A stretch of DNA of 34,879 bases, taken from assembly GCF_020740835.1 (NCBI RefSeq), contig NZ_JAINFC010000014.1, forward strand, positions 1-34,879, in the 5' to 3' direction. Below are positions 3,784 to 19,347 of the stretch, piece by piece; within the stretch, counting starts at the first letter, position 1, and each line of letters opens with the position of its first letter. The translations under genes were made by a program, and so were the position numbers. Origin of the DNA: Streptomyces sp. UNOC14_S4 (lineage in GTDB: Bacteria > Actinomycetota > Actinomycetes > Streptomycetales > Streptomycetaceae). A model generated the notes under the pieces. The model did no database searches, had not been told where the DNA came from, and saw only the letters and a program-made list of their open reading frames with translations.

Positions 3784-3793
3784 AACATCGCCC
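3766..3793. terminator. 28-base perfect palindrome with embedded parS: terminator of the MFS gene
   Basis: A perfect palindrome with 14-base arms is centred between 3779 and 3780. Its inner 14 bases are a perfect parS, and its outer GGGCGA/TCGCCC turns the site into a strong stem. It overlaps the last codons and stop of the MFS gene, between that gene and the convergent pcnA, so it may serve both as terminator and as ParB site. Confidence 0.55.
3773..3786. promoter_or_regulatory. parS site (perfect) overlapping the MFS gene stop
   Basis: GTTTCACGTGAAAC, the actinobacterial ParB-binding palindrome, extended to 16 bases by flanking T and A. The reading frame used by the MFS gene meets the TGA inside the site. 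Confidence 0.93.
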
Positions 3794-3814
3794 CTCGACA
3801 GCTCACCCACCGGT

Positions 3815-3828
3815 GTTTCACGTGCGAC
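3815..3828. promoter_or_regulatory. Degenerate parS site
   Basis: GTTTCACGTGCGAC differs from the consensus at two positions in the right arm. It sits between two perfect sites (29 and 21 bases away). Weak binding, or decay from a former site, is possible. Confidence 0.5.
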
Positions 3829-3848
3829 GCCGTTTCGTGCACGCCGCC

Positions 3849-3862
3849 GTTTCACGTGAAAC
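3849..3862. promoter_or_regulatory. parS site (perfect), MFS–pcnA intergenic
   Basis: A perfect GTTTCACGTGAAAC lies 15 bases beyond the pcnA stop. With 3773-3786 and 3815-3828 it makes a three-site cluster in the 93-base gap between convergent genes. Confidence 0.93.
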
Positions 3863-3876
3863 ACCGCACCGGCACA

Positions 3877-5352: not shown

Positions 5353-5560
5353 AACAGAAGAGGGTACGTGGCCGCACGCCCGGGAGCCTCTCGGTAAACG
5401 GAGGAGAGCGCCGTACCGCACAAAGCAGGCGCAGCCGGGACATCGGGCCACGGCGACGATCTTGCGGAGCGGTCCGCGGCACTTCGTCACAGCGGGCCTC
5501 GTTACCATTCGTGGACGCATAACCGACGACCACTGACGACGACGAGGGACGGACGAGCGC

Positions 5561-7852
5561 GTGGCCGAGGCGGCAGAGTTCCAGGGGACGGTCTCCGCTG
5601 CTGCCTGCCGGTGGTTCCGCCACACCGCGCTGGTACTGACCGGTCTGCTGCTGGTCATGGGCCTGGTGCAGCTGCCGGCGGCCCCCGCCGCCCACGCCGA
5701 GTCGGCGGGCTCCCGCACGGTCGGGGTCTCCGTCGACTCCGTGACGCCCGTCGCGCCGACGCAGAACGACACGATCACCGTCTCGGGCACCGTCACCAAC
5801 AACGGCGGCTCGACGGTCACCGACGCGCACGTGGGCCTGCGCGTGGGCCCACAGCTCACCAGCCGCAGTGACATCGACGACCTGGCCGTGCGCTCGGCCT
5901 TCTCGCCGGGCACCGACGGCTCCGAGGTCGGCGGCCACACCCAGAAGATCGACAAACTGCCTCCGGGCGTCAGCCGCGACTTCAGCATCTCCCTGCCCGC
6001 GAAGGACCTGGATCTCGGCAAGGACGGGGTCTACCAGCTGGGCGTCTCCCTCTCCGGGCAGTCCTCCGAGCAGTCGTACGAGCGGGTGATGGGCATCCAG
6101 CGGACGCTGCTGCCGTGGCAGCCGTCCGCCGTCGAGGGCAAGAAGACCCAGCTCACCGTCCTGTGGCCGCTCATGTCCACGACCCGGCTGACCGCCCGCA
6201 CGGAGTCCGACCAGCAACAGACGCCGATCTTCCCCCATGACGACCTGGCCGCGGAGCTCGCGCCGGGCGGCAGGCTCCAGCAGCTGGTGGCGCTGGGCAA
6301 GAACCTGCCGATCACCTGGGTGATCGACCCCGATCTGCTCGCCACGGTCGAGGCCATGACGAAGAGCTACCGGATCGACGGGCCGGACGGGAAGACCGTC
6401 CCCGGCAAGGGCCAGGCGGTCGCCAAGCAGTGGCTCAGCCAGCTCCAGACCGCCATCGCGGGCGACCAGGTGGTGGCACTGCCCTTCGGCGACCCGGACC
6501 TCGCCTCACTCGCGCACCACGGCAAGGACGTCTCCGGCACCCTGAGCCACCTCCAGTCCGCCACGGAGCTCGCCGCGACCACCGTGGACACCATCCTCGG
6601 GGTGAAGCCGCGCACGGACTTCACCTGGCCCTACGAGGGCGCGGTCGACTCTTCGATCATCGACGTGGCCACCTCGGCGGGCGCGCACAACGTGATCGCC
6701 CGCAGTGACAGCTTCCGCGAGTCCCGCGGCTCGTACACCCCGACCGCCGCGCGGCAGATCGGCGGTGGCAACACGGCCATCGTCGCGGACGACCGGCTGT
6801 CCACCGCCTTCCAGGGCGACATGGTCCGGGCCGACGACTCCTCGCTCGCCGTGCAGCGCTTCCTCGCCCAGAGCCTCCTGGTGAACAAGCAGGCCCCCGA
6901 CGACGAGCGCAGCATCGTGGTCGCGCCCCAGCGCATGCCCACGGCCAGCCAGGCACAGGCCATGGCGGCGGCCCTCGGCGGGCTGACGGACGGCCGCTGG
7001 ACGCAGCCCGTCGACCTGGGCGACGCCGCCAAGGCCAAGCCCGACCCGGCGGCCAATCAGCAGGTGCCCGGCACCGGCGCCTACCCCGAGTCGCTGCGCA
7101 AGCAGGAGCTGGGCACCGAGGCGTTCGAGGAGATCCAGAAGACCCAGGAGACCCTGGATGCCTTCAAGGTGATCCTCACCTCGCAGGACCGCGTGGTCAC
7201 CCCCTTCGGCAGCGCGATCATGCGGGAGATGTCCAATTCCTGGCGCGGTGACGCGCGGGGTGCCGCGGAGTTCCGCACCGCCGTGCGGTCGTATCTGGAC
7301 CAGCTCAAGGGCCAGGTGCAGCTGATCCCGAAGTCCGACGCCACCCTGTCCGGCCGCAGCGCGACCATCCCCGTGACGGTCCGGAACGGCCTCCTGCAGC
7401 CCATCTCCGGGCTGCGGCTGGTGCTGGAGTCCAGCAGGCCGAACCGCCTCAAGGTGGGCGAGGCCCAGCAGGTGCGGATCGACGGCGGGCACAACCAGTC
7501 GGTGAAGTTTGAGACCACGGCCAACGCCAACGGTCCGGTCCAGGTGACGGCCCGGCTGTACACGGACGACGGCCAGCCCTACGGCGACCCGATGACCTTC
7601 ACTGTGCATGTCACGTCCATCACCCCTATGGTGCTGATCGTCATCGTCGGCGGCGTGCTGCTCCTGATCCTCGCGGGCCTTCGCATCTACATCCAGCGCA
7701 AGCGCTCCGCCGCTGGTGGGACGGACACCGGAGGAGCTCCCGCGGGCACCGGGCCGGACGACGACAACCCTGGAGGATCGGATTCCCCGGCTCCGGACAC
7801 CGGATCGGAAAGCACCGACCCATCCGGCTCAGGTGAGAAAGTGGACCGTTGA
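5561..7852 (+). CDS. DUF6049 family secreted/membrane-anchored protein
   Basis: The 763-residue protein starts with GTG after a GAGGGA ribosome site. Residues 20-47 form a signal peptide (hydrophobic VLTGLLLVMGLVQLP, then AHA before the likely cut). An Ig-like beta domain follows (about 50-180, including TVSGTVTNNGGSTVTDAHVGLRVG). The large middle region includes TWVIDPDLL and WPYEGAVD motifs suggestive of a polysaccharide-deacetylase-like fold. A second beta domain lies near 600-680. A single membrane helix (about 687-708, MVLIVIVGGVLLLILAGL) is followed by a basic stop-transfer and an acidic cytoplasmic tail. It is the counterpart of mycobacterial Rv3909, always next to murJ/mviN, so a role in the cell envelope is inferred. 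The biochemical activity is unknown. Confidence 0.85.
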   Translation: MAEAAEFQGTVSAAACRWFRHTALVLTGLLLVMGLVQLPAAPAAHAESAGSRTVGVSVDSVTPVAPTQNDTITVSGTVTNNGGSTVTDAHVGLRVGPQLTSRSDIDDLAVRSAFSPGTDGSEVGGHTQKIDKLPPGVSRDFSISLPAKDLDLGKDGVYQLGVSLSGQSSEQSYERVMGIQRTLLPWQPSAVEGKKTQLTVLWPLMSTTRLTARTESDQQQTPIFPHDDLAAELAPGGRLQQLVALGKNLPITWVIDPDLLATVEAMTKSYRIDGPDGKTVPGKGQAVAKQWLSQLQTAIAGDQVVALPFGDPDLASLAHHGKDVSGTLSHLQSATELAATTVDTILGVKPRTDFTWPYEGAVDSSIIDVATSAGAHNVIARSDSFRESRGSYTPTAARQIGGGNTAIVADDRLSTAFQGDMVRADDSSLAVQRFLAQSLLVNKQAPDDERSIVVAPQRMPTASQAQAMAAALGGLTDGRWTQPVDLGDAAKAKPDPAANQQVPGTGAYPESLRKQELGTEAFEEIQKTQETLDAFKVILTSQDRVVTPFGSAIMREMSNSWRGDARGAAEFRTAVRSYLDQLKGQVQLIPKSDATLSGRSATIPVTVRNGLLQPISGLRLVLESSRPNRLKVGEAQQVRIDGGHNQSVKFETTANANGPVQVTARLYTDDGQPYGDPMTFTVHVTSITPMVLIVIVGGVLLLILAGLRIYIQRKRSAAGGTDTGGAPAGTGPDDDNPGGSDSPAPDTGSESTDPSGSGEKVDR

Positions 7853-7897
7853 CGTGTAATGGGGCCGGCCGGCCGCGGACGATGAGGTGGGGTAGCG

Positions 7898-10144
7898 ATG
7901 AACGCGCCGTACGACGGTGACCGCGGGCAGGGCGCCGGTGGTGAACAGCGGGGCGCCTACCCGCCGCCCCCGCCTGCCCCGGGCCCGTCCCGCCAGGGCC
8001 CGTACGCCCGCGATCCCTACCTCCGGGACGCGTACGCCGCCGACCCGTACCCCGAGCACGACCCGGCGGCCCAGGACCCGGTGAACGGCGCGCTGCACGA
8101 CCGTGCCGTGCCGCCCCCGCCCGGCACCTACCAGAACACCTTCCCGCTCCACCAGCCTCAGCCGGGCCCGCAGCAGGGCCCGGACCCGCGGCAGTGGGGA
8201 GCGGCGCCGCAGCAGTACCCCGAGGCTCCCGCGCGCCCGTACGGTGACGAACCCACGACGCAGTTCGCCGGCGTCGGCGGCCTCGCGGGCCAGACCGCGC
8301 CGGGGGAGCGGCCGGAGCGCGACGCCTTCGCGCACCTGTACCGGGACCAGCAGCAGCCCTACGAGCCGCAGCGCCCGGACGGCCAGCCGATCCCGGCACC
8401 CGGCCAGTACGCCAACCAGTCGCCCCAGGTCCCGCCGCTTCCGCAGCCGCCCACGCCCGAGCCCGAGGCCGAGCTGGAGGCACCCGCGGCCCCGGCGGCG
8501 AAGGGCGGCAAGGCGGCGAGCGTGCTGAAGTCGAGCGCGCTGATGGCGGCGGGCAGCCTCGTCTCCCGCATCCTGGGCTTCGGCCGCAACCTGGTGATGG
8601 CGGCGGCGATCGGCGTCGGCACCCTCAACGACAGCTACCAGGTCGCCAACACCCTGCCGACGATGATCTACATCCTCGTCGGCGGCGGTGCGCTGAACGC
8701 CGTGTTCATCCCGCAGCTGGTGCGGTCGATGAAGAACGACGAGGACGGCGGCGAGGCGTACGCCAACCGGCTCTTCACCCTCGTCGTGGTCCTCATGGGC
8801 GCCATCACCACCGTGTGTGTGCTGGCGGCGCCGGTGGTGGTCCGGGCGATGATGCCCGACAACGCCTCCAGCCCCGGTCAGCTGGACGTCGCGGTGGCGT
8901 TCGCCCGCTACTGTCTGCCCACCATGTTCTTCATGGGCATCCACGTCGTCGTCGGGCAGATCCTCAACGCCCGCGGCAAGTTCGGCGCGATGATGTGGAC
9001 CCCGGTCCTCAACAACATCGTCGTCATCGCCACCTTCAGTGCCTTCATCTGGGTCTACGGCGACTCCGTCACGAGCGGTGTCAGCGCCGCCAACATCTCG
9101 CCCGAGGGCGTACGGCTGCTCGGCATCGGCACCCTGCTCGGTCTCACGGTGCAGGCGCTGGCGATGCTCCCGTACCTGCGCGAGACCGGCTTCAAGCTCC
9201 GGCTGCGGTTCGACTGGCGCGGCCAGGGCCTCGGCAAGTCCCTGGGCCTCGCCAAGTGGACGTTCCTGTTCGTCCTCGCCAACCAGCTCGGCATGGTCCT
9301 CATCACCCAGCTCGGCACCCGGGCGGGCGCCCTCGCCGAGAAGGCGCACCACACGGGCACCGGCATCACGGCCTTCAACTTCGCGCTGCAGCTCTGGCAG
9401 ATGCCGCAGGCCATCATCACCGTCTCCGTGATGACCGCGGTACTCCCCCGGATCTCCCGTGCCGCCCACGACGGCGACGCGGCCGCCGTGCGCGACGACC
9501 TCTCGCACGGTCTGCGGACCTCGGCCGTCGCGATCGTTCCCTGTGCCTTCGCGTTCCTGGCGCTCGGCGTGCCCATGGCCACGCTGATGTTCTCCAGCTC
9601 GGGGACCGGCGGCGCCACGAACATCGGTTTCATCCTGATGGCCTTCGGCATCGGGCTCGTCCCGTACTCCGCGCAGTACGTCATCCTGCGCGGTTTCTAC
9701 GCCTACGAGGACACCCGGACCCCCTTCTACAACACCCTGATCGTCGCGGGCGCCAACTCCGTGGGCGCCGTCATCAGCTACCTCGTCCTGCCCTCGCGAT
9801 GGGCCGTGGCGGGCATGGCCTTCTCGTACGGCGCCGCCTACGCCGTCGGTGTCGTCGTCGCCTGGCGTCGGCTGCGTACCCGGCTCGGCGGGGATCTGGA
9901 CGGCGCCCGGGTCGTCCGGACGTACGCCCGCCTGGCCGGCGCGTGCGTCCCCGCCGCCCTCATCGGCGGTGCCGTCGCTTACGGGATCAGCCAGGTTCTC
10001 GGCCGTGGATTTACGGGTTCGCTCGCCGCTCTGATCGGTGGTGGTCTCCTCCTGATCGGCGTCTTCTATATCGCCGCGAAGCGGATGCGCGTCGAGGAGC
10101 TGACCGCCATGGTCGGTATGGTCCGCGGACGCATCGGACGCTGA
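7898..10144 (+). CDS. murJ: Lipid II flippase MurJ (MviN) with long Pro-rich N-terminal extension
   Basis: The 748-residue integral membrane protein is a member of the MOP-exporter fold that flips lipid II across the membrane for peptidoglycan synthesis. About 200 N-terminal residues are disordered and Pro/Gln/Tyr-rich (repeated YP, GPQQGP), probably cytoplasmic. The MurJ core begins with SSALMAAGSLVSRILGFGRNLVMAAAIG, includes LPTMIYILVGGGALNAVFIPQL, and runs through some 14 hydrophobic segments to about residue 730. The ATG follows GAGGTGGGG. It lies 45 bases after the DUF6049 gene and is followed by a separate pseudokinase gene; in mycobacteria that pseudokinase is the C-terminal part of the same polypeptide. 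Confidence 0.95.
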   Translation: MNAPYDGDRGQGAGGEQRGAYPPPPPAPGPSRQGPYARDPYLRDAYAADPYPEHDPAAQDPVNGALHDRAVPPPPGTYQNTFPLHQPQPGPQQGPDPRQWGAAPQQYPEAPARPYGDEPTTQFAGVGGLAGQTAPGERPERDAFAHLYRDQQQPYEPQRPDGQPIPAPGQYANQSPQVPPLPQPPTPEPEAELEAPAAPAAKGGKAASVLKSSALMAAGSLVSRILGFGRNLVMAAAIGVGTLNDSYQVANTLPTMIYILVGGGALNAVFIPQLVRSMKNDEDGGEAYANRLFTLVVVLMGAITTVCVLAAPVVVRAMMPDNASSPGQLDVAVAFARYCLPTMFFMGIHVVVGQILNARGKFGAMMWTPVLNNIVVIATFSAFIWVYGDSVTSGVSAANISPEGVRLLGIGTLLGLTVQALAMLPYLRETGFKLRLRFDWRGQGLGKSLGLAKWTFLFVLANQLGMVLITQLGTRAGALAEKAHHTGTGITAFNFALQLWQMPQAIITVSVMTAVLPRISRAAHDGDAAAVRDDLSHGLRTSAVAIVPCAFAFLALGVPMATLMFSSSGTGGATNIGFILMAFGIGLVPYSAQYVILRGFYAYEDTRTPFYNTLIVAGANSVGAVISYLVLPSRWAVAGMAFSYGAAYAVGVVVAWRRLRTRLGGDLDGARVVRTYARLAGACVPAALIGGAVAYGISQVLGRGFTGSLAALIGGGLLLIGVFYIAAKRMRVEELTAMVGMVRGRIGR

Positions 10145-10253
10145 CCGGAGCACAACCATCGCCCGCCGCCGCGTGTCGTGCATAGCGCCGGACTGTGGGC
10201 ACAATTGTCTTGGCTGTGGACAGGGTGCAACGGATGGGGAGGCGGGAACGACG

Positions 10254-11957
10254 GTGGCGGAACGGAGCACAGCTGCCGTCGACGTGGCGGCCGCCGGCGG
10301 CAGCAAGCCGCTGACCACCGGGACGGCCAAGGCCACGACCGACGGGACACGGGACGCGGGCGGCACGGACGCGCACAAGGACGCCTCCCGCACGGAGGCG
10401 CGGAGCACCACCCGCGATCCGAAGGCCCCCGAGCTCCACAGCGGCCACAAGCTCGCCAAGCGGTACCGCTTGGAGGAGTGCGTCACCCGTCTGGAGGGAT
10501 TCAGCAGCTGGCGCGCGGTCGACGAGAAGCTCCGCCGCGCGGTCGGCGTGCACATCCTGCCCGCCGAGCACCCGCGGTCCCGTCCGGTGCTCGCCGCGGC
10601 CCGCTCCGCCGCCTTGCTCGGCGACCCCCGCTTCGTCCAGGTCCTCGACGCCGTCGAGGAGAACGAGCTCGTCTACGTGGTCCACGAGTGGCTGCCCGAC
10701 GCCACCGAGCTCAGCACCGTGCTCGCCGCCGGGCCGATGGAGCCGTACGACGCCTTCCAGCTCGTCAGCCAGGTCTCGCAGGCCATGGCCACCGCCCACC
10801 GCGAGGGCCTCGCGCACCTCCGCCTCAACCCCGGCTCCGTGCTGCGCACCTCGACCGGCCAGTACCGCATCCGCGGGCTCGCGGTCATGGCCGCCCTCCG
10901 GGGCATCAGCCCCGAGCACCCCCAGCGCACCGACACCGAGGCCATCGGCGCCCTGCTGTACGCCGCGCTGACCCAGCGCTGGCCCTACGAGAGCAACGCG
11001 CACGGCCTGCCCGGCCTGCCCAAGGGCACCGGCCTCATCGCCCCCGACCAGGTGCGGGCGGGAGTCCACCGCGGCCTCTCGGAACTCGCGATGCGCGCAC
11101 TCGTCAACAACGGGGCCACCGCGTCACGGCAGGAAAAGCCGTGCGCCACTCCGGAGGAGCTCGCCAAGGCGGTCGCGGCCATGCCGCGCATCCGTCCACC
11201 GGAGCCATCCTTCGCCACTCCACCCGGCGGCTACCAGCGCACCACGTATCAGCCGGGTGCGTATGGTCAGCCGCCGTCGCGCAACGGCCATCCACAGCCC
11301 GCGCCGGTGCCCCCACCGCCTCCGCTCCAGAGCCGCACGGGGCGAGCCCTGAAGTGGTGCGTCTCCGCCCTGCTCATCGCCGCGCTGGGGCTGGGCAGCT
11401 GGCAGCTGGCGGATGCGCTGCTGAGGGAGGGGGACCCCAGCAGTCACTCCCAGTCGGACAACGGTGAGGGCGAGAAGAAGCCCGCCATAGCGCCACTGCC
11501 CATCAAAGAGGCCACGGAGTTCTCGCCCAAGGACAGCCCCATGGCGGAGAACAAAGCCTCTTTGACCGTGGACAACGACCAGAGCACCGGTTGGTATACC
11601 GGGGCTTTCTACAACCACTCCAACTTCGGAAACTTGCCCAATCGCAAGCAGGGCAGCGGCATCATCGTCGACCTTGGCAGTATCAAGAACGTCACTGGTG
11701 TCGACGTGACCATGTACTCCGGACAGACCATAGAGGTACTGGGCGCCGATTCCCCCGACTCGCGGCCCACCGATCTCAGCGGCTTCAAGAAGAAGATCAT
11801 CGACAGTAGGACGGCAGGCGCCGAACTGAAGGCCAACGCCGCAAAACCTGTGAAGACCCGCTATGTGCTGATCCACATCACCGATCTGCCTCCCGACCCC
11901 AAGGGGGGCAACGGGTACCGCGGCGGCATCAACGAGATCAAGGTCCTCGGCTACTAG
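10254..11957 (+). CDS. Membrane pseudokinase with extracellular beta-sandwich domain (MviN C-terminal counterpart)
   Basis: From the GTG at 10254 (GGGGAGG 11 bases upstream) the protein has 567 residues. Residues about 70-290 resemble a Ser/Thr kinase (RYRLEECVTRLEGFSSWRAVDEKL...), but the key catalytic residues are gone: the ATP-anchoring Lys region reads VGVHIL (about 97-102), the HRD loop reads HLRLNP (about 188-193) and the DFG region reads IRGLAV (about 206-211). A Pro-rich linker, one membrane helix (about 366-385, WCVSALLIAALGLGSW) and an extracellular discoidin/carbohydrate-binding-like domain (about 413-567) follow. This is the architecture of the C-terminal part of mycobacterial MviN, whose phosphorylated pseudokinase recruits the FHA protein FhaA to restrain MurJ. 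The same regulatory role is inferred here. An earlier in-frame GTG at 10173 would add 27 residues with four Cys but has no ribosome site. Confidence 0.85.
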   Translation: MAERSTAAVDVAAAGGSKPLTTGTAKATTDGTRDAGGTDAHKDASRTEARSTTRDPKAPELHSGHKLAKRYRLEECVTRLEGFSSWRAVDEKLRRAVGVHILPAEHPRSRPVLAAARSAALLGDPRFVQVLDAVEENELVYVVHEWLPDATELSTVLAAGPMEPYDAFQLVSQVSQAMATAHREGLAHLRLNPGSVLRTSTGQYRIRGLAVMAALRGISPEHPQRTDTEAIGALLYAALTQRWPYESNAHGLPGLPKGTGLIAPDQVRAGVHRGLSELAMRALVNNGATASRQEKPCATPEELAKAVAAMPRIRPPEPSFATPPGGYQRTTYQPGAYGQPPSRNGHPQPAPVPPPPPLQSRTGRALKWCVSALLIAALGLGSWQLADALLREGDPSSHSQSDNGEGEKKPAIAPLPIKEATEFSPKDSPMAENKASLTVDNDQSTGWYTGAFYNHSNFGNLPNRKQGSGIIVDLGSIKNVTGVDVTMYSGQTIEVLGADSPDSRPTDLSGFKKKIIDSRTAGAELKANAAKPVKTRYVLIHITDLPPDPKGGNGYRGGINEIKVLGY

Positions 11958-11990
11958 CAGCACTCCGAGTCCAAGGGGAGGGGTCCGGGG

Positions 11991-12680
11991 TTGGACGACG
12001 TCATCTACGACAGCGCGAGCGACGCCGACCTTCTCGCCCTGCATGTGGACGGTGACCCCCACGCCTTCGGCGAGCTGGTGCGCCGCCACCGCGACCGCCT
12101 CTGGGCCGTCGCGCTCCGGACGCTCGGTGACCGCGAGGAGGCCGCGGACGCCGTACAGGATGCCCTGGTCTCCGCCTATCGCTCCGCGCACACCTTCCGT
12201 GGCCAGTCCGCCGTCACCACCTGGCTGCACCGCATCACCGTCAACGCCTGTCTGGACCGGGCCCGCAAGGCGGCCTCACGACGCACCGCTCCCCTCGCCG
12301 AGACGGAGCGGCTGGAGCAGCTCCTCGAACCTCACGAATCCGCCGCCGCGCCCGCGGAGCGCGGAGACCTGCACCGTGAACTGCTCCAGGCACTCGCCAC
12401 GCTCCCGCCCGACCAACGCGCGGCCCTTGTGCTCGTGGATATGCAGGGCTATCCGGTCGCCGAAGCAGCCAAGGTTCTGGACGTCCCTGTCGGCACTGTG
12501 AAGAGCAGATGTGCCCGGGGCCGGGCGCGCCTGCTGCCCATGCTCACCCATCTGCGTCCGGATGGCATGGGTAACCCGCCCCGCAGCGGGGGAAGGAACC
12601 GGTCGCAAGGGGCGTCCGTCCCACCACCAGCAGGACAGAGTGACGCAGATCCAGTGAAGGGCGGAGGTGGGCGAGCGTGA
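11991..12680 (+). CDS. sigM: ECF RNA polymerase sigma factor SigM
   Basis: The 229-residue protein has region 2 at about residues 20-90 (HAFGELVRRHRDRLWAVALRTLGDREEAADAVQDALVSAYRSAHTFRGQSAVTTWLHRITVNACLD) and region 4 at about 125-185 (ALATLPPDQRAALVLVDMQGYPVAEAAKVLDVPVGTVKSRCARGRARL). No region 1.1 or 3 is present, as in group 4 sigma factors. The start is a rare TTG, chosen because AGGGGAGG lies before it and no ATG/GTG is better placed. A Gly/Pro-rich tail follows region 4. It overlaps the anti-sigma gene by four bases (GTGA), which indicates translational coupling. The order murJ–sigM–anti-sigma–trxB matches mycobacterial sigM, supporting the name. It probably responds to envelope or redox stress. 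Confidence 0.92.
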   Translation: MDDVIYDSASDADLLALHVDGDPHAFGELVRRHRDRLWAVALRTLGDREEAADAVQDALVSAYRSAHTFRGQSAVTTWLHRITVNACLDRARKAASRRTAPLAETERLEQLLEPHESAAAPAERGDLHRELLQALATLPPDQRAALVLVDMQGYPVAEAAKVLDVPVGTVKSRCARGRARLLPMLTHLRPDGMGNPPRSGGRNRSQGASVPPPAGQSDADPVKGGGGRA

Positions 12681-13741
12681 CTTCGACGACCGGCACGGAT
12701 GAGCACCCGGAGGTCGCGGAGATCTCCGCGCTCGCCGAGGGAGTGCTCCCCCCGTCACGCTCGGCGGACCTTCGGGAGCACCTGGCGGACTGCGAGCTGT
12801 GCGAAGAGGTCAGGACGTCCCTCGACGAGATCCGGACGTTGCTGGGCACACTCCCCGGCCCGGCCCGGATGCCCGAGGACGTCGCAGGCCGTATCGACGC
12901 GGCGCTCGCCGCGGAAGCGCTCCTCGATGCGACCGCTGCCCGTTCCCTGGACGCTCCCGACAGCGAGGGCTCGCTGGTTTCACGTGAAACCGCAGCGCCC
13001 CGCTCGGAGAGCGTTTCACGTGAAACCACGGCACGACCTTCCGAAAGCGTTTCACGTGAAACCGCGACGCCTCCCTCGGAGGCCTCCGAGGCCTCCGAGG
13101 ATGTTTCACGTGAAACCTCGAAGGTCTCCGCTGACCGCGCCACGACATCCACCCGTGTTTCACGTGAAACCAGCGTTCGCCGCCCCTCTTCCCGCCCCGG
13201 CGCGGCGACCGGTCCCGGCCGCCGGCGGCCTTCACCCGGGAAGACCCGGCCGCGGCCCTCCCGACTCTGGCCCAAGGCCCTTCTCGGAGCCGCGTGTGCC
13301 GCTGCCGCGCTCGGAGTGGGAGTCGCGCTCCTCCTCCCCGGGGACAGCGGGAAGCAGGACCGCCCGCAGGCGGTCCACGAGAGTCAATCTCCGGATGTCC
13401 TCGCCTCGGGTGATCTCAGGACCCGTGTCCATGAGCTGCTGGCGACGTCCTCCAGGACCACCCCGTTCCAGGGCAAGCACTCCGAGCACTCCTCCGATGC
13501 GCCGATGCGCGACTTCGGGGCCACGGCCCCGTCCTGTGTCCAGCAGGGGATCGGCCGCTCGGACCAGATCCTGGCCTCGCAGCAGGACGGCTACAAGGGT
13601 GTCCCTTCCTATCTCGTCGTGCTGCCCCATCCCGCCGACACCAAGCTCGTCGACGCCTATGTCGTCTCCTCGGCATGCGTCGAGGCCACTCCGCCCGTCC
13701 CCGGAGAGGTCCTGCTCCAGCGGACACTGCCGCGTACCTGA
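12677..13741 (+). CDS. Anti-sigma factor of SigM, zinc-finger type, with five parS sites in its linker
   Basis: The 354-residue membrane protein begins with an anti-sigma domain carrying H35-x3-C39-x2-C42, the zinc-binding ZAS motif (LREHLADCELCEEV). A long low-complexity linker (about 90-198) contains five VSRET peptides at residues 101, 113, 125, 143 and 161, each encoded by a perfect parS palindrome. One membrane helix (about 200-221, ALLGAACAAAALGVGVALLLPG) is followed by an extracytoplasmic domain of about 130 residues with two Cys. The GTG start overlaps the sigM stop. By position it is the cognate SigM inhibitor, holding the sigma factor at the membrane. The linker appears shaped by its DNA-level role in ParB binding. 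The VSRET repeats have no known protein function. Confidence 0.88.
   Translation: MTSTTGTDEHPEVAEISALAEGVLPPSRSADLREHLADCELCEEVRTSLDEIRTLLGTLPGPARMPEDVAGRIDAALAAEALLDATAARSLDAPDSEGSLVSRETAAPRSESVSRETTARPSESVSRETATPPSEASEASEDVSRETSKVSADRATTSTRVSRETSVRRPSSRPGAATGPGRRRPSPGKTRPRPSRLWPKALLGAACAAAALGVGVALLLPGDSGKQDRPQAVHESQSPDVLASGDLRTRVHELLATSSRTTPFQGKHSEHSSDAPMRDFGATAPSCVQQGIGRSDQILASQQDGYKGVPSYLVVLPHPADTKLVDAYVVSSACVEATPPVPGEVLLQRTLPRT
12977..12990. promoter_or_regulatory. parS site 1 in anti-sigma gene (perfect)
   Basis: GTTTCACGTGAAAC in frame as VSRET, codons 101-105. It is the first of five sites within 194 bases. Confidence 0.95.
13013..13026. promoter_or_regulatory. parS site 2 in anti-sigma gene (perfect)
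   Basis: GTTTCACGTGAAAC, exactly 36 bases after site 1 and in the same reading frame (VSRET, codons 113-117). Confidence 0.95.
13049..13062. promoter_or_regulatory. parS site 3 in anti-sigma gene (perfect)
   Basis: GTTTCACGTGAAAC, exactly 36 bases after site 2, codons 125-129. Confidence 0.95.
13103..13116. promoter_or_regulatory. parS site 4 in anti-sigma gene (perfect)
   Basis: GTTTCACGTGAAAC, 54 bases after site 3. The extra 18 bases relative to the 36-base spacing match a tandem 9-base repeat (GCCTCCGAG) encoding EASEAS immediately before it. Confidence 0.95.
13157..13170. promoter_or_regulatory. parS site 5 in anti-sigma gene (perfect)
   Basis: GTTTCACGTGAAAC, 54 bases after site 4, codons 161-165. 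Confidence 0.95.
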
Positions 13742-13771
13742 GTCACCGCGGACCGAGCGCTGTCGTCCTTC

Positions 13772-13798
13772 GGGAATGCTCGCCCCGTAGGATCCGTT
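13772..13798 (+). promoter_or_regulatory. SigR-type promoter of trxBA
   Basis: GGGAAT (13772-13777) and GTT (13796-13798) are separated by 18 bases, an exact match to the SigR consensus GGAAT-N18-GTT. The trxBA operon is an established SigR target in Streptomyces coelicolor. The predicted start near 13804 leaves about 55 bases of leader. Disulphide stress would induce it through SigR/RsrA. Confidence 0.85.
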
Positions 13799-13858
13799 GG
13801 GTGGGGTGAAAACCCCGCAAGAACCCGAGACAGCCGTCGGCAGACAAGGAAGACTCCC

Positions 13859-14827
13859 GTGAGCGACGTCCGCAACGTGATCATCATCGGTTCCGGGCCC
13901 GCGGGCTACACCGCCGCGCTCTACACCGCCCGCGCCTCGCTGAAGCCGTTGGTCTTCGAGGGCGCCGTGACCGCGGGTGGTGCGCTGATGAACACCACCG
14001 AGGTGGAGAACTTCCCCGGCTTCCGCGACGGGATCATGGGCCCCGACCTGATGGACAACATGCGGGCCCAGGCCGAGCGCTTCGGCGCCGAGCTGATTCC
14101 GGACGACGTCATCGCCGTCGACCTGAGCGAAGAGATCAAGACGGTCACCGACTCCGCGGGCACCGTCCACCGCGCCAAGGCCGTCATCGTCACCACCGGC
14201 TCCCAGCACCGCAAGCTCGGCCTGCCGCGTGAGGACGAGCTGTCCGGCCGCGGTGTCTCCTGGTGTGCCACCTGCGACGGGTTCTTCTTCAAGGACCAGG
14301 ACATCGCCGTGATCGGCGGTGGCGACACCGCGATGGAGGAGGCCACCTTCCTCTCGCGGTTCGCGAAGTCCGTCACCGTCGTCCACCGCCGTGACACCCT
14401 GCGCGCCAGCAAGGCCATGCAGGAGCGTGCCTTCGCCGACCCGAAGATCTCCTTCGTGTGGGACAGCGAGGTCGCCGAGATCCACGGTGACAACAAGCTC
14501 TCCGGCCTGACCCTGCGCAACGTCAAGACCGGCGAGACCTCGGAGCTCCCGGTGACCGGTCTCTTCATCGCGATCGGCCACGACCCCCGCACCGAGCTGT
14601 TCAAGGGCCAGCTGGACCTGGACGACGAGGGCTACCTCAAGGTCGACGCCCCCTCCACGCGCACCAACCTGGCCGGTGTCTTCGCCGCCGGTGATGTCGT
14701 GGACCACACCTACCGCCAGGCGATCACCGCTGCCGGTACCGGCTGCTCGTCCGCCCTCGACGCCGAGCGCTACCTCGCGCACCTCTCGGACGCCGAGAGC
14801 GTCCGGGAGCCCGAGAAGACCGCCTGA
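13859..14827 (+). CDS. trxB: Thioredoxin-disulfide reductase
   Basis: The 322-residue flavoprotein transfers electrons from NADPH through FAD and a redox-active disulfide to thioredoxin. The FAD-binding motif is at residues 11-16 (GSGPAG). The active-site pair is C136-A-T-C139 in SWCATCDG. The NADPH-binding motif is [13 protein letters not shown] second FAD-contact motif near the C-terminus reads [23 protein letters not shown]. Length is typical for low-molecular-weight reductases. The start is GTG with an AGGAAG ribosome site about 10 bases upstream. trxA follows after 47 bases, and the pair is under the SigR promoter. Confidence 0.98.
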
Positions 14828-14874
14828 CCTCCTCTCTCCCCCCGCCCCACGCAAGAAGATCTAAGGAGACCTCC

Positions 14875-15195
14875 GTGGCTCTCAAGGCCGTAACCGACAA
14901 GACCTTCGCCGAGGACGTTCTCAAGAGCGACAAGCCCGTCCTGGTGGACTTCTGGGCCGACTGGTGCGGCCCGTGCCGTCAGATCGCCCCCTCCCTGGAG
15001 GCCATCGCCGCCGAGCACGGCGACAAGATCGAGATCGTCAAGCTGAACATCGACCAGAACCCGGACACGGCCGCCAAGTACGGCGTCATGTCGATCCCGA
15101 CCCTGAACGTCTACCAGGGTGGCGAGGTCGTCAAGACCATCGTCGGCGCCAAGCCGAAGGCCGCTATCGAGCGCGACCTGGCCGACTTCATCTAA
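14875..15195 (+). CDS. trxA: Thioredoxin
   Basis: This 106-residue cytoplasmic disulfide reductase carries the canonical active site W-C31-G-P-C34 in FWADWCGPCRQIAPS, the cis-proline loop SIPTLNVY and the C-terminal GAKPKAAIERDLADFI helix. A strong ribosome site (AAGGAGACC) lies before the GTG start. It is cotranscribed with trxB and reduces protein disulfides with electrons from it. A strong hairpin follows at 15220-15253. Confidence 0.98.
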   Translation: MALKAVTDKTFAEDVLKSDKPVLVDFWADWCGPCRQIAPSLEAIAAEHGDKIEIVKLNIDQNPDTAAKYGVMSIPTLNVYQGGEVVKTIVGAKPKAAIERDLADFI

Positions 15196-15208
15196 GTCGC
15201 TCATCCTT

Positions 15209-15222
15209 GTTTCACGTGAAAC
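15209..15222. promoter_or_regulatory. parS site (perfect) downstream of trxA
   Basis: GTTTCACGTGAAAC lies 13 bases after the trxA stop, between convergent genes. Its last three bases are also the first bases of the terminator stem at 15220-15253. Confidence 0.94.
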
Positions 15223-15253
15223 GGGCCCGCCCTCGGCTGAGGGCGGGCCCGTT
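15220..15253. terminator. Bidirectional terminator between trxA and the GNAT gene
   Basis: A perfect 15-base GC-rich stem with a four-base loop GGCT lies between the convergent trxA and GNAT genes. It is one of the strongest hairpins in the window and overlaps the end of a parS site. Confidence 0.75.
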
Positions 15254-15275
15254 CGCGTATCCGGCTCGGCAGCGG

Positions 15276-15893
15276 CTACAGGGGCCGCAAGGCCGGTTCC
15301 TTCTGTACGGCACCGAGCAGCCGGTCCAGCGCCAGCTCGACGTCCTCTTTCCAGGAGAGCGCCGTACGGAGCTCCAGCCGCAGCCGTGGATAGCGGGGGT
15401 GCGGCCGCACCGTCTTGAAGCCCACTGCCAGCAGATGGTCGGCGGGCAGCACGCACGCCGGTTCTTTCCAGTGAGCGTCCCCGAACGCCTCGATGGCCTT
15501 GAAGCCACGGCGGAGGACATCCTTGGCGACGGTCTGCACCATCGTCCGCCCCAGCCCCTGCCCCTGGTAGGCCGGCAGCAGCCACCCCGTCATCAGTTGC
15601 ACGGCATCGGCCGCGACGGGGCTGGTGGAGAAAGCCCCGGAGCGGGGGACATAGGCAGGCGGCGCGTAGAGCACAAAGCCCACCGGGGCCTCGTCGACAT
15701 AGACGACGCGTCCACAGGACCCCCACTCCAGGAGAACGGCGGAGATCCAGGCTTCCTTCTCCAGCTCGGGACGGCCCGCCTTCAGCGCGGCTTCACCACT
15801 GACGGGGTCCAACTCCCAGAAGACGCAGGAACGACAGCGCGCGGGAAGATCCGGGAGGTTGTCCAGCGTGAGCGGTACGAGCCGACGCCCCAT
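15276..15893 (-). CDS. GNAT family N-acetyltransferase
   Basis: The 205-residue protein has the acetyl-CoA binding motif in LLPAYQGQGLGRTMVQTV (Q/R-x-x-G-x-G/A type, about residues 107-124), preceded by beta strands VVYVDEAPVGFVLY and followed by AKDVLRRGFKAIEAFGDAHW. Its N-terminal part (LPDLPARCRSCVFWELD) has a CxxC pair. The acceptor substrate is unknown. The ATG at 15893 is the first possible start, because an in-frame stop lies a few codons upstream, and GAGGA precedes it. It sits between trxA and parB, where mycobacteria carry cwlM and a homologous acetyltransferase-like gene. A small overlapping frame (15782-16039) may precede it. Confidence 0.8.
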   Translation of the reverse strand: MGRRLVPLTLDNLPDLPARCRSCVFWELDPVSGEAALKAGRPELEKEAWISAVLLEWGSCGRVVYVDEAPVGFVLYAPPAYVPRSGAFSTSPVAADAVQLMTGWLLPAYQGQGLGRTMVQTVAKDVLRRGFKAIEAFGDAHWKEPACVLPADHLLAVGFKTVRPHPRYPRLRLELRTALSWKEDVELALDRLLGAVQKEPALRPL

Positions 15894-16039
15894 CGAGCCA
15901 AATCCTCATTTCCGTCGTGTGCCACACTCCGGGCGGCGCACAGCGCGCTCCGCTCCCTGAGAAGACCGCCGACGAATCCGCCGACTGCCCCCAGGCCAAG
16001 GCCCGCTGCCAACAGTCCGGTCCGGCTCACCGTTCGCAT
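15782..16039 (-). CDS. Possible small membrane protein overlapping the GNAT gene start
   Basis: An 85-residue frame starts with ATG at 16039 after a GGAGGGC ribosome site. Its first 30 residues (MRTVSRTGLLAAGLGLGAVGGFVGGLLRER) look like one Gly-rich membrane helix followed by a charged stop. The last 112 bases overlap the GNAT gene in another frame, and that part has no obvious character. It fills the otherwise empty stretch between the parB end and the GNAT start. It may be a real small gene, possibly translationally coupled to the GNAT gene, or chance; I do not recognise a family. Confidence 0.35.
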   Translation of the reverse strand: MRTVSRTGLLAAGLGLGAVGGFVGGLLRERSALCAARSVAHDGNEDLARWGVGSYRSRWTTSRIFPRAVVPASSGSWTPSVVKPR

Positions 16040-16134
16040 GGACCCGCCCTCCGTGAACCATGTCCAACGTGGATGCGCCATACCCAACGCATCGTATCCG
16101 GGCCCGGTTTGAGCGAACAGCGGAGAAAGGCAAA

Positions 16135-16170
16135 GGGCGGGTTGTGTTCCACGTGAAACACAACCCGCCC
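16135..16170. terminator. 36-base near-perfect palindrome after parB, with embedded parS
   Basis: The arms of 18 bases pair with a single mismatch around a degenerate parS. The outer GGGCGGGTTGT/ACAACCCGCCC provides a strong stem. It lies 17 bases beyond the parB stop and probably terminates the parAB transcript. Confidence 0.6.
16146..16159. promoter_or_regulatory. parS site with one mismatch, downstream of parB
   Basis: GTTCCACGTGAAAC differs from consensus at one position in the left arm, giving the single mismatch of the surrounding palindrome. Confidence 0.75.
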
Positions 16171-16187
16171 CGACACCATCGCGACGC

Positions 16188-17294
16188 CTACTCGGCGTCG
16201 GCCCCGTCCTCAGAAGCGAGCTTCTGCTCCATCACCCGGCCCTCACCGGGGGCGAGCGTGCTCAGAATCCGCTCCAGATCCTCCATCGAGGCGAACTCGA
16301 CGACGATCTTTCCCTTCTTCTGCCCGAGGTCGACCTTCACCCTGGTCTCGAAGCGGTCCGACAGCCGCGAGGCCAGGCCCGAGAGCGCCGGGGAGACCCG
16401 GGCCCCGGCACGCGGCCCCTTGGCCTTCGCGGACTTCCGGGAGCCTGCCCCCATCAGGGTGACAATCTCCTCCACCGAGCGCACCGACAGGCCCTCGGCA
16501 ACAATGCGATGTGCCAGCCTGTCCTGCTCCTCCGCGTCCTCGACGGACAGCAGGGCACGGGCATGGCCGGCGGACAGCACCCCGGCCGCGACCCTCCTCT
16601 GCACGGTGGGCGACAGCTTCAGCAGGCGCAGCGTATTGGAGACCTGCGGCCGCGAGCGCCCGATCCGGTCCGCCAGTTCGTCATGCGTGCACTTGAAGTC
16701 CTTGAGGAGCTGGTCGTATGCCGCGGCCTCCTCAAGAGGGTTCAGCTGGGCACGGTGAAGATTCTCCAGCAGAGCGTCGAGGAGAAGCTTCTCGTCCTCC
16801 GTGGCCCGGACGATGGCCGGGATGCGCTCCAGACCGGCCTCACGGCAGGCCCGCCAGCGACGCTCGCCCATGATGAGCTCGTAGCGCTCCGGGGCGAACT
16901 GCCGAACGACGACGGGCTGCAGCAGCCCGACCTCGCGGATCGAGGTGACCAGCTCCGCCAGGGCGTCCTCGTCGAAGACCTCGCGGGGCTGCCGGGGGTT
17001 GGGCGTGATGGAGTCCAACGGCAGCTCGGCGAAGTGGGCGCCTGCCACGCTCCCCGTATCCGGAGTCTCCTCCACGGCCACCGCGGCATCCGTTTCACGT
17101 GAAACAGCGATGTCCTCGACAGGCAGCGGGGTCACCACCGGCGTCGGCATGACGCGGTCAGCCGTGAGCACCGGGACCGCGGACGGCGAGGTGGCACCGT
17201 GCCCCACCGCCGTGCCCGCGTTCTCCGATGTCTTGGGTGCCGCCGGAATCAGCGCACCGAGCCCACGGCCCAGTCCCCTACGTCGCTCACTCAC
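16188..17294 (-). CDS. parB: Chromosome partitioning protein ParB
   Basis: The 368-residue protein binds parS, spreads along DNA and, in the ParB family, hydrolyses CTP as a sliding clamp. The N-terminal [17 protein letters not shown] is the ParA-interacting, arginine-rich start. The CTP-binding ParB/Srx domain (about 88-175) contains [10 protein letters not shown] and GERRWRA (143-149). The helix-turn-helix is at about 203-222 ([23 protein letters not shown]). A C-terminal dimerisation segment reads [25 protein letters not shown]. The GTG start overlaps the parA stop by four bases. Codons 64-68 (VSRET) are themselves a parS site, so ParB may bind within its own gene. Its role in Streptomyces is organising oriC regions during sporulation. 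Confidence 0.97.
17092..17105. promoter_or_regulatory. parS site inside parB (perfect)
   Basis: GTTTCACGTGAAAC encodes VSRET at ParB residues 64-68, in the variable linker before the ParB/Srx domain. Confidence 0.95.
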
Positions 17295-18340
17295 TGCAGC
17301 CCCTCCGACATGCTGTGCTGGTCCTGCTGTTGCTGATGGCCCACCATATGGGCCCTACTGCCGTCGTAACGCACGCCCACCCCCCGCAGTGCGATCTCCC
17401 GGGCCGCCTCCAGGTAGGACAGCGCCCCACTGGAACCCGGGTCATAGGTAAGAACGGTCTGCCCATAGCTGGGCGCCTCGGAGATACGCACGGACCGGGG
17501 GATGCTGGTACGCAGCACCTCATGGCCGAAGTGGGTACGGACCTCGTCGGCCACCTGGGAGGCCAGCCGGGTCCGGCCGTCGTACATCGTCAGCAGAATG
17601 GTCGACACATGGAGCTTGGGGTTGAGGTGCCCCCGCACCAGCTCGACATTGCGGAGCAGCTGCCCCAGCCCCTCCAGCGCGTAGTACTCGCACTGGATGG
17701 GGATCAGTACCTCGGCACCCGCGACCAGGGCGTTCACGGTCAGCAGGCCGAGCGAGGGCGGGCAGTCGATGAGGATGTAGTCCAGCGGCTGCTCGTAGGC
17801 CTTGATCGCCCGGTCCAGGCGGCTCTCACGGGCCACCAGCGAGACCAGCTCGATCTCGGCGCCCGCCAGGTCGATGGTGGCGGGCGCGCAGAAAAGACCC
17901 TCCACATCGCGCACCGGCTGCACCACGTCGGAGAGCTTCTTGCTGTCGACGAGGACGTCATAGATCGACGGGACCTCGGCGTGGTGATCGATGCCCAGCG
18001 CCGTGGACGCGTTGCCCTGGGGGTCGAGGTCGATGACCAGCACACGGTTTCCGTGCAGCGCCAACGAGGCCGCCAGATTCACGGTGGTGGTGGTCTTGCC
18101 CACGCCACCCTTCTGGTTGGCGACCACCATGACCCGGGTCTGCTCCGGCCGGGGCATCGCGGGCGGCGTTTCACGTGAAACAACCTCCCCCGCGGGCGGA
18201 GGGCCCGGTACAGCACCCGGCTCGGAGTCGGCGGGACGGGGGCCGGGGACCGGATCGGCCATCGGCCCCGCGGTATTGGCGTCGGACCGCAAGGATTCAC
18301 TCTCCTCGACTTCAGGCTCGCAATAGACAGAGCCTGCCAT
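17291..18340 (-). CDS. parA: Chromosome partitioning ATPase ParA
   Basis: From the ATG at 18340 the protein has 349 residues. A 65-residue disordered N-terminus, with VSRET at 54-58 encoded by parS, leads to a Walker-type ATPase. The deviant Walker A motif KGGVGKTT is at 77-84, and [10 protein letters not shown] and [19 protein letters not shown] follow. It is the ParA/Soj family, which positions ParB–DNA complexes. The start is uncertain: the frame is open up to a GTG at 18511 inside a parS site and has another ATG at 18421, but the ribosome signals are poor at all three. I chose 18340 because [20 protein letters not shown] is the start I recall for Streptomyces ParA. It is translationally coupled to parB. 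Confidence 0.93.
18168..18181. promoter_or_regulatory. parS site inside parA (perfect)
   Basis: GTTTCACGTGAAAC encodes VSRET at ParA residues 54-58, in the non-conserved N-terminal tail. Confidence 0.95.
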
Positions 18341-18374
18341 GGTTTCGGGTCCGTGAACCAGCGAGGCCCGTTCT

Positions 18375-18407
18375 CCTGTGGATGAATCCCCCGAGCCTGT
18401 GGATGAA
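18375..18407. repeat. Two 12-base direct repeats resembling DnaA boxes upstream of parA
   Basis: CCTGTGGATGAA occurs at 18375-18386 and again at 18396-18407, exactly 21 bases apart (two helical turns). Read leftward the core is TCATCCACA, one base from the classical DnaA box TTATCCACA. They lie 35-67 bases upstream of the chosen parA start and could link parAB expression to DnaA. This is an inference. Confidence 0.45.
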
Positions 18408-18495
18408 CACGGATCATCCATGGCTGTCGGACGCTCGCGCGGGGCACCTCCCTCCGCGCGAACACGACCGATGATTCCCAGCAGCAAGGAGCGAC

Positions 18496-18509
18496 GTTTC
18501 ACGTGAAAC
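18496..18509. promoter_or_regulatory. parS site (perfect) in the rsmG–parA gap
   Basis: GTTTCACGTGAAAC lies upstream of parA. In the parA frame it would read FHVK after a GTG at 18511, a possible but unlikely alternative start. ParB binding here could also affect parAB transcription. Confidence 0.94.
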
Positions 18510-18627
18510 ACGATGCACCGGACGCTCCGCGGCGATACGGCGACACTCCGTCACGGATCGTCTTGCCAGCTTGTATGGAGCATCGGGCCGCCCACGGACG
18601 GCGGCCCCGCTCCTGCTCCTGTGTGCG

Positions 18628-19347
18628 TCAGCGGCGACGGCGGGTCGGCCGGCCCACCCGGGCCGCCTTCGCCCGCTTCGCAGCGAAGCGCACCCCGCCG
18701 GGGCTCTCCCCGACCTCGACCCGCACGACAGTGGACATCGGGTCCACCACGCCCTCGCCGACCTGGATCACCGAGGTGCGGACGACGCCGAGCTTGCTCA
18801 GGGCGGCACGGGCCGCCTGGAGCTCCTCCTCCGCCGTGTCGCCCTTCAGGGCCAGCATCTCGCCGTACGGGCGGAGCAGCGGAACGCCCCAGCCCGCGAG
18901 GCGGTCCAGCGGCGCCACCGCGCGGGCCGTCACCACATGCACGGGCGGCACCTTGCCGAGCATCTCCTCGGCGCGGCCGCGCACGACCGTGACATGGTCC
19001 AGGCCCAGCAGCTCGACGACCTCCTGGAGGAACGTCGTCCGGCGGAGCAGCGGCTCCAGCAGGGTGATCTGGAGATCCGGCCGCACCAGGGCCAGCGGGA
19101 TGCCGGGCAGCCCGGCGCCCGAGCCCACGTCGCACACCGAGACGCCGTCGGGCACGGCCTCTGCGAGCACCGCGCAGTTCAGCAGGTGGCGCTCCCAAAG
19201 CCGCGGTACCTCACGGGGACCGATCAGACCCCGCCGCACTCCCGCGTCCGCGAGCAGTTCGGCGTACCGGACGGCCTCCGGCAGGTGGTCGCCGAAGACC
19301 TCCCGGGCCTCCGGTGGCGCCGGGGGGAGCTCCGCTGCCTCATCCAC
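18628..19347 (-). CDS. rsmG: 16S rRNA (guanine-N7) methyltransferase RsmG (GidB)
   Basis: The 239-residue enzyme methylates a guanine of the 530 loop of 16S rRNA using S-adenosylmethionine. In Streptomyces and mycobacteria its loss gives low-level streptomycin resistance. The SAM-binding motif is VCDVGSGAGLPGIPLAL (71-87). The substrate-side motifs LLEPLLRRTTFLQEVV and VTARAVAPLDRL follow. The C-terminal 25 residues are very basic (RFAAKRAKAARVGRPTRRRR), an extension usual in actinobacteria. The start is GTG after AAGGA. It lies between jag and parA on the same strand, with a hairpin in front and a 287-base gap behind. Confidence 0.95.
   Translation of the reverse strand: MDEAAELPPAPPEAREVFGDHLPEAVRYAELLADAGVRRGLIGPREVPRLWERHLLNCAVLAEAVPDGVSVCDVGSGAGLPGIPLALVRPDLQITLLEPLLRRTTFLQEVVELLGLDHVTVVRGRAEEMLGKVPPVHVVTARAVAPLDRLAGWGVPLLRPYGEMLALKGDTAEEELQAARAALSKLGVVRTSVIQVGEGVVDPMSTVVRVEVGESPGGVRFAAKRAKAARVGRPTRRRR

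Follow-up and report, generated by a model that had tools for sequence, protein, structure and literature searches.

Five in-frame parS sites in an anti-sigma factor gene

Five exact copies of the 14-mer GTTTCACGTGAAAC were found inside the coding sequence of an anti-SigM-type anti-sigma factor gene of Streptomyces sp. UNOC14_S4, and comparison of related loci makes it likely that these are chromosomal parS sites to which the linker of the anti-sigma factor is host, not purpose. In the window, by which we mean the whole 34,879-nucleotide stretch of contig NZ_JAINFC010000014.1 that was analyzed, the copies lie within 12977–13170, starting at 12977, 13013, 13049, 13103 and 13157 with start-to-start spacings of 36, 36, 54 and 54 bases. 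Each copy reads VSRET in frame 0 of the open reading frame (ORF) 12677–13741. The exact-match search and the frame check thus bear out the initial annotation, which had described five perfect in-frame parS copies encoding VSRET in the anti-SigM gene. The bases flanking the sites are G/C at site 1 (12977–12990), C/C at sites 2 (13013–13026) and 3 (13049–13062) and T/C at sites 4 (13103–13116) and 5 (13157–13170), the last of which falls on a VSRET column that is invariant in a seven-sequence alignment. The full T...A 16-bp palindrome is absent from all five, and each site may be weaker for lack of these flanks.

Such density is not expected by chance. With up to three mismatches allowed, the window contained 13 matches versus 0.57 expected from shuffles, and 13 was reached in none of 100 shuffles; a reversed-pattern control with one mismatch allowed gave no match in the whole assembly. 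Exact parS occurs 13 times genome-wide, with 11 copies in the window (five of them in the anti-sigma gene) and 11 of the 13 on the same contig as parAB.

The host gene (12677–13741, plus strand) encodes 354 amino acids and was assigned from domain, alignment and hydropathy evidence. Its product consists of an HC2 zinc-finger-like N-terminal domain, a low-confidence linker, a hydrophobic segment and a C-terminal domain. H35, C39 and C42 of the N-terminal HxxxCxxC motif are invariant across seven host-protein sequences, PF13490 (zf-HC2) scored 20.3 bits, just under its cut-off of 22.2, and an NCBIfam search of the protein returned no matches. In an AlphaFold model built from only seven aligned sequences, residues 101–240 have a pLDDT of 35–45 per ten-residue block, and this linker is probably disordered. 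The placing of the VSRET sites in a disordered linker, as first proposed, agrees with this low-confidence model of the site-bearing stretch. The hydrophobic segment past the linker was located by hydropathy, the model being of low confidence there as well.

Directly upstream, with a 4-base overlap, lies sigM (11991–12680, plus strand, predicted TTG start), whose product is an ECF sigma factor matching the SigM equivalog NF007225 at 291.7 bits versus a cut-off of 190. Downstream follow two plus-strand ORFs that we take to be trxB, encoding thioredoxin reductase (13859–14827), and trxA, encoding thioredoxin (14875–15195). The genes parB (16188–17294) and parA (17291–18511), both on the minus strand, lie 3–5 kb from the five-site array; ParB has ParB_N, HTH_ParB and ParB_C domains (matches to PF02195, PF17762 and PF23552) and a visible GERR motif.

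The remaining sites of the window occupy varied settings. One parS lies just 3' of trxA, adjoining a strong hairpin (15209–15222), and this slot is filled in 71 of the 78 same-genus loci in which trxA was found. Two others read VSRET in frame in the N-terminal extensions of ParB (17092–17105) and ParA (18168–18181), and another sits at the predicted 5' end of parA (18496–18509) in the other open frame (FHVK). Across 51 same-genus loci, the two parA slots are filled in 50 and 45 and the parB slot in 29. Another ORF takes its TGA stop from a parS (3773–3786) that lies within a strong hairpin at its 3' end, and an intergenic parS (3849–3862) is accompanied by a two-mismatch copy at 3815. A terminator-like hairpin 3' of parB (16134–16171, minus strand) holds a one-mismatch parS (16146–16159) in its stem; it was flagged by a terminator scan that found 4 candidates versus 4.4 in shuffles, and the hairpin at 3773 was not flagged. 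Elsewhere on the chromosome, parS pairs exactly 8 bp apart, the shortest spacer searched, were seen in six of 12 same-genus relatives (G004, G006, G008, G009, G011 and G012).

Conservation of the site within and beyond Streptomyces

The site was followed across 127 Streptomycetaceae loci beyond the window. Of 150 same-genus genomes, the 69 with a match to a trxB-motif pattern entered the comparison by that route, the other 81 did not, and six named Streptomyces loci and eight from the family search were added to the same-genus set; L002–L006 were assigned to it by their Streptomyces names only. One duplicate of the window (L015) was dropped, and second matches in G007, G223 and G229, together with eight same-genus genomes, were left out of the locus set. 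With the window counted, an in-frame site is present in the anti-sigma gene of all 79 same-genus loci, as GTTYCACGTGRAAC in 78 and as GCTTCACGTGAAAC, one change away, in L066. Genes with a single site dominate (65), followed by genes with two (11), five (2) and three (1). Six further same-genus trxB loci (L026, L034, L049, L050, L061 and L086) and thirteen from the family (L091, L094, L097, L101, L103, L109, L116, L119, L133, L136, L138, L147 and L150) had no anti-sigma match; since all 19 also lack sigM, they are other copies of trxB and not lost sites.

The five-site arrangement itself is not conserved. Across the same-genus loci, retention of the number or the phase of sites, which the initial annotation had put forward as a check, is not supported, and the usual number is one. 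Spacings in multiples of 18 hold for the window and fail as a kept phase in relatives: the sister locus L001 has 36, 36, 36 and 54, and only three of 14 spacings from the other same-genus loci are multiples of 18, in a list that takes in degenerate extra copies (L006 and L153) and leaves out three same-genus loci. One of these three, L088, has a spacing of 33. A conserved 18-base phase was ruled out on these grounds. The DNA helix turns about once per 10.5 bp, and a common helical face was likewise rejected, as 36 and 54 bp correspond to about 3.4 and 5.1 turns.

Beyond the genus, 49 loci from 12 other genera of the family were read; twenty short loci were swapped for longer ones from the same genomes, and L105, L108 and L110 stayed short. 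By this comparison, 10 of the 13 sampled Streptomycetaceae genera retain a parS-type site where sigM meets the anti-sigma gene, with one of these two genes as its host. The anti-sigma gene carries it in g11 (8/8 loci), g17 (3/3), g20 (2/2), g16 (1/1) and g14 (1/1), and the C-terminal tail of sigM carries it, in frame, in g18 (10/12), g15 (3/3), g8 (1/1) and g7 (7/13). In the six remaining g7 loci, the same sigM tail holds altered palindromes or hybrids instead. No locus of the family set has a site in both sigM and the anti-sigma gene. The short locus L105, in which sigM was not called, has a site 152 bases upstream, and L108 is a truncated locus. No sites were found in the host genes read from g6 (three loci), g13 (one) and g19 (one, sigM not called); with three of the 12 other genera siteless, the site is not essential in the family. 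At class level, a set of 50 loci included 15 without an anti-sigma match; none of the 35 with the gene has a site in it, and none was found in sigM where that gene was called (30 loci).

What is conserved appears to be the DNA and not the peptide. Under the codon usage of the window, the chance that VSRET is spelled as parS is 1.1e-5, yet the exact 14-mer encodes every VSRET peptide of sigM and the anti-sigma gene (105 + 26 = 131 of 131). The preference extends past the 14-mer: the Thr codon after the site is ACA in 94 of 131 cases versus 7 of 272 in the genes of the window, and a T stands immediately before the site in 101 of 131, compared to 6.6% of codons ending in T. By these counts the outer bases of the palindrome are favored too, and the flanks extend it. 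Where the DNA changes, the peptide follows. The g11 sites are GTTCCACGTGGAAC or its hybrid with a canonical half-site and read VPRGT or VPRET in all eight loci, with two to three sites in each of the eight genes and at least one T...A site per gene; the sigM tails of the six changed g7 loci read VTRVT, VTRET, VTREA and ASRET. With the exception of the degenerate extras in L006 and L153, non-standard copies are still palindromes resembling parS or join two different half-sites as a hybrid, and the protein is often altered by the change. Within both host genes the site is always in one same reading frame, in linker or tail. The 131 exact spellings, together with a peptide that tracks the DNA through VPRGT, VTRVT and ASRET, argue for selection on DNA, which appears to maintain centromere sites of the parS type where the coding sequence is permissive. 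The usual constraint is thereby inverted: amino acids change where a parS-like palindrome allows it, and alternative codons for VSRET are never seen. Conserved linker peptides can be centromeres, which calls for caution in reading them as protein motifs.

The g7 genus offers a possible case of parS turnover (L124, L126 and L128–L131, from genomes G211, G227, G198, G195, G219 and G191). G227 carries GTCACACGTGTGAC four times, all within 8 kb beside parAB, G191 carries GCTTCACGTGAAGC nine times, and the other g7 turnover genomes have hybrids. ParB of these six loci shows L197M, H204Q, A247V and Q257R at otherwise invariant positions of the HTH region and A266P at an almost invariant one (window numbering, 6 versus 88 proteins). 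Compared genome-wide to a reversed control, the degenerate pattern was in excess in G191 (17 to 7) and slightly so in G195 (5 to 3), whereas the remaining four genomes showed no excess; because the excess is clear in G191 only, the case for turnover rests on place and clustering.

Origin of the array

In a quick trxB tree, the window groups with L001 (Streptomyces griseocarneus), L039, L031, L020 and L044 (SH-aLRT 93, below the 95 that earns a star), and the anti-sigma genes of these six loci carry 5, 5, 3, 2, 2 and 2 sites, respectively. The array starts with a 36-bp tandem unit, composed of parS and a 22-nt spacer, in three copies that have diverged (12977–13081, plus strand). In the window, 16 of 22 positions are shared between the spacers that follow sites 1 and 3, and 13 of 22 between those that follow sites 1 and 2; two pairs of L001 spacers also share 16 of 22. 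Random in-frame pieces share 7 of 22 on average (single-pair P about 1e-4, with ten pairs compared). L039 has its own 36-bp duplication of a different unit, in which 17 of 22 positions on the 5' side of its second and third sites match. The 54-bp step from site 3 to site 4 of the window contains a 9-bp micro-repeat region encoding SEASEASE (13074–13100, plus strand), and this CCTCCGAGG-type repeat adds 18 bases (54, compared to 36 in L001). The five-site array is therefore supported, at the level of sequence comparison, as a clade-level expansion with 36-bp tandem duplication; the clade numbers 2, 2, 2, 3, 5 and 5 together with the spacer similarity fit a stepwise process. In the L039 linker RETGTRETGTRETGARETGTRET, RET repeats look like decayed parS half-sites beside intact ones.

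Growth of the linker by repeat duplication, which had been suggested at the outset, is supported by the spacer agreement and by linker lengths of 113 and 119 residues in the five-site genes, compared to a median of 67.5 and a maximum of 93 in single-site genes; this length set leaves out L056, L088, L156, L210, L139, L142, L108 and L228, which the site-presence count includes. That the linker grew generally in order to host a site was rejected, as genera lacking a site in the anti-sigma gene have the same median of 67.5 (32 genes) and only the five-site linkers far exceed the single-site range. Full T...A palindromes are found in 58 of 65 single-site genes versus 3 of 14 multi-site genes (Fisher P = 9e-7). 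Compensation of weaker flanks by site number was considered and set aside: the multi-site state changes only four times on the trxB tree, leaving a pair test powerless, and g11 is a counter-example, being multi-site with T...A kept.

Outside the host gene, exact sites number 8 in the window genome, 9 in that of L039 and 6 in that of L031, with 14 each in two other clade genomes. Twenty chosen single-site genomes have 12–25 exact sites in total and 11–24 elsewhere (Mann–Whitney P = 0.013 for the five clade genomes versus single-site genomes, relatedness ignored). The lower numbers elsewhere in the window genome, L039 and L031 may reflect redistribution, within what is one clade. It is conceivable, though it falls a little short of probable, that Streptomycetaceae have a centromere slot whose position is constrained to the sigM/anti-sigma junction, in which palindrome and host change while the place is kept, with satellite-like duplication and decay in one clade. 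Were this so, part of the sequence of a regulatory protein would be a by-product of centromere evolution.

Function of the array and relation to known systems

In the explanation that we favor, the single site at the sigM/anti-sigma junction multiplied to five copies in the clade of the window through short in-frame tandem duplications. ParB-CTP clamps would load at each VSRET site largely independently and then slide along the DNA of sigM, the anti-sigma gene and trxB, and the array would serve chromosome segregation by raising local loading of ParB (and SMC) near the origin. Disorder of the linker would allow the protein to tolerate the insert, and SigM would be affected incidentally, if at all. 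This mechanism is consistent with what the accessible parts of published work report: ParB ChIP peaks of S. venezuelae mostly coincide with parS (PMC4852455, PMC12511625), its ParB spreads up to 2.5–3 kb (PMC12511625) and independent binding of two parS by S. coelicolor ParB is possible (PMC12207404).

One rival reading holds that one parS is functional and that the extra copies are neutral duplication products awaiting loss. We consider it unlikely, though it deserves weight: five sites are confined to one sister pair of loci, the L039 RET repeats resemble decayed copies and the genome total of exact sites is not raised (13 versus 12–25), but neither the window nor L001 has a mismatch in any of its five sites despite diverged spacers, and the window genome, L039 and L031, unlike the other two clade genomes, have few sites elsewhere (8, 9 and 6 versus 11–24), as if sites had been redistributed. 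An action of the array in mRNA, where folding of mutually inverted repeats would slow the transcription of the anti-sigma gene or its translation, seems highly improbable. The predicted folding is strong (z = −7.5 at 12960–13105 and −6.3 at 13030–13175), yet repeated palindromes give such folding as a by-product, and 65 of the 79 same-genus genes have a single site with no partner to pair with. Scarcely credible is a selected VSRET protein motif, such as a cleavage or binding site, with the palindrome as its consequence; one VSRET was invariant among the first seven proteins, but a parS spelling expected at only 1.1e-5 per VSRET, and peptides that vary to VPRGT, VTRVT and ASRET while parS-like DNA is kept, already contradict it.

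Regulation of the sigM/anti-sigma or trxBA operon by ParB on the array, which would couple segregation to the SigM stress response, is also improbable in our judgment, and the analysis lends no support to this proposal of the initial annotation. It too would predict a site held at the junction in 10 of 13 genera, and ParB of S. venezuelae spreads by as much as 2.5–3 kb (PMC12511625). Precedents exist in the available portion of PMC7022226: P. aeruginosa ParB represses two parS-adjacent promoters, three genes are affected in the ParB-covered region of V. cholerae and a modest effect is seen 5 kb away in S. pneumoniae, whereas B. subtilis genes beside parS are unchanged upon loss of ParB. By analogy with these four bacteria, ParB control of neighboring genes is possible but not the rule, with P. 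aeruginosa as the chief exception. Moreover, the host alternates between sigma and anti-sigma gene, where a roadblock would be expected to shift the balance differently, and other parS slots of the island are fixed as well. A scan for sigma-70-type promoters over 3600–19000 found none versus 0.5 in shuffles and so carries little weight. The family amounts to a natural experiment, with one to five sites, two hosts and changed palindromes, on how many ParB-loading sites are needed by a chromosome and whether their place matters.

The closest known system is the origin-proximal parS cluster of Streptomyces ParABS, which shares the 14-bp palindrome, the many sites and the proximity to parAB. The accessible text of PMC4852455, PMC12511625 and PMC8743542 gives 16–17 parS for S. 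venezuelae, 23 central sites for S. coelicolor and a mean of 22.8 across 20 closed Streptomyces genomes, and origin-island clusters are already known (PMC8743542). These accounts, in their accessible parts, count and map sites and do not describe coding frame, host linker or a switch of host gene; a word search of the available text of PMC5815017 found no wording on the coding or intergenic position of parS. In P. aeruginosa, 9 of 10 parS are most likely inside coding sequences, and parS2/3 TGTTCCACGTGGAACA contains the g11 palindrome, GTTCCACGTGGAAC being its core; there, as far as the accessible text of PMC4368675 goes, the sites are single and scattered, with no in-frame array in one linker described. 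A search of the open literature by title and opening lines of abstracts, with most subscription journals outside its reach, turned up no account of such an array in frame, of a conserved linker hosting it or of a host that alternates between sigM and the anti-sigma gene. Relative to the actinobacterial SigM/anti-SigM pair, the locus shares the SigM equivalog and the overlapping downstream gene with H35, C39 and C42, and differs in the parS carried within the gene in Streptomycetaceae genera, compared to 0 of 35 class-level loci. Thus, parS sites within genes and parS clusters in Streptomyces are known, whereas the in-frame array, its host linker and the host switch are apparently new.
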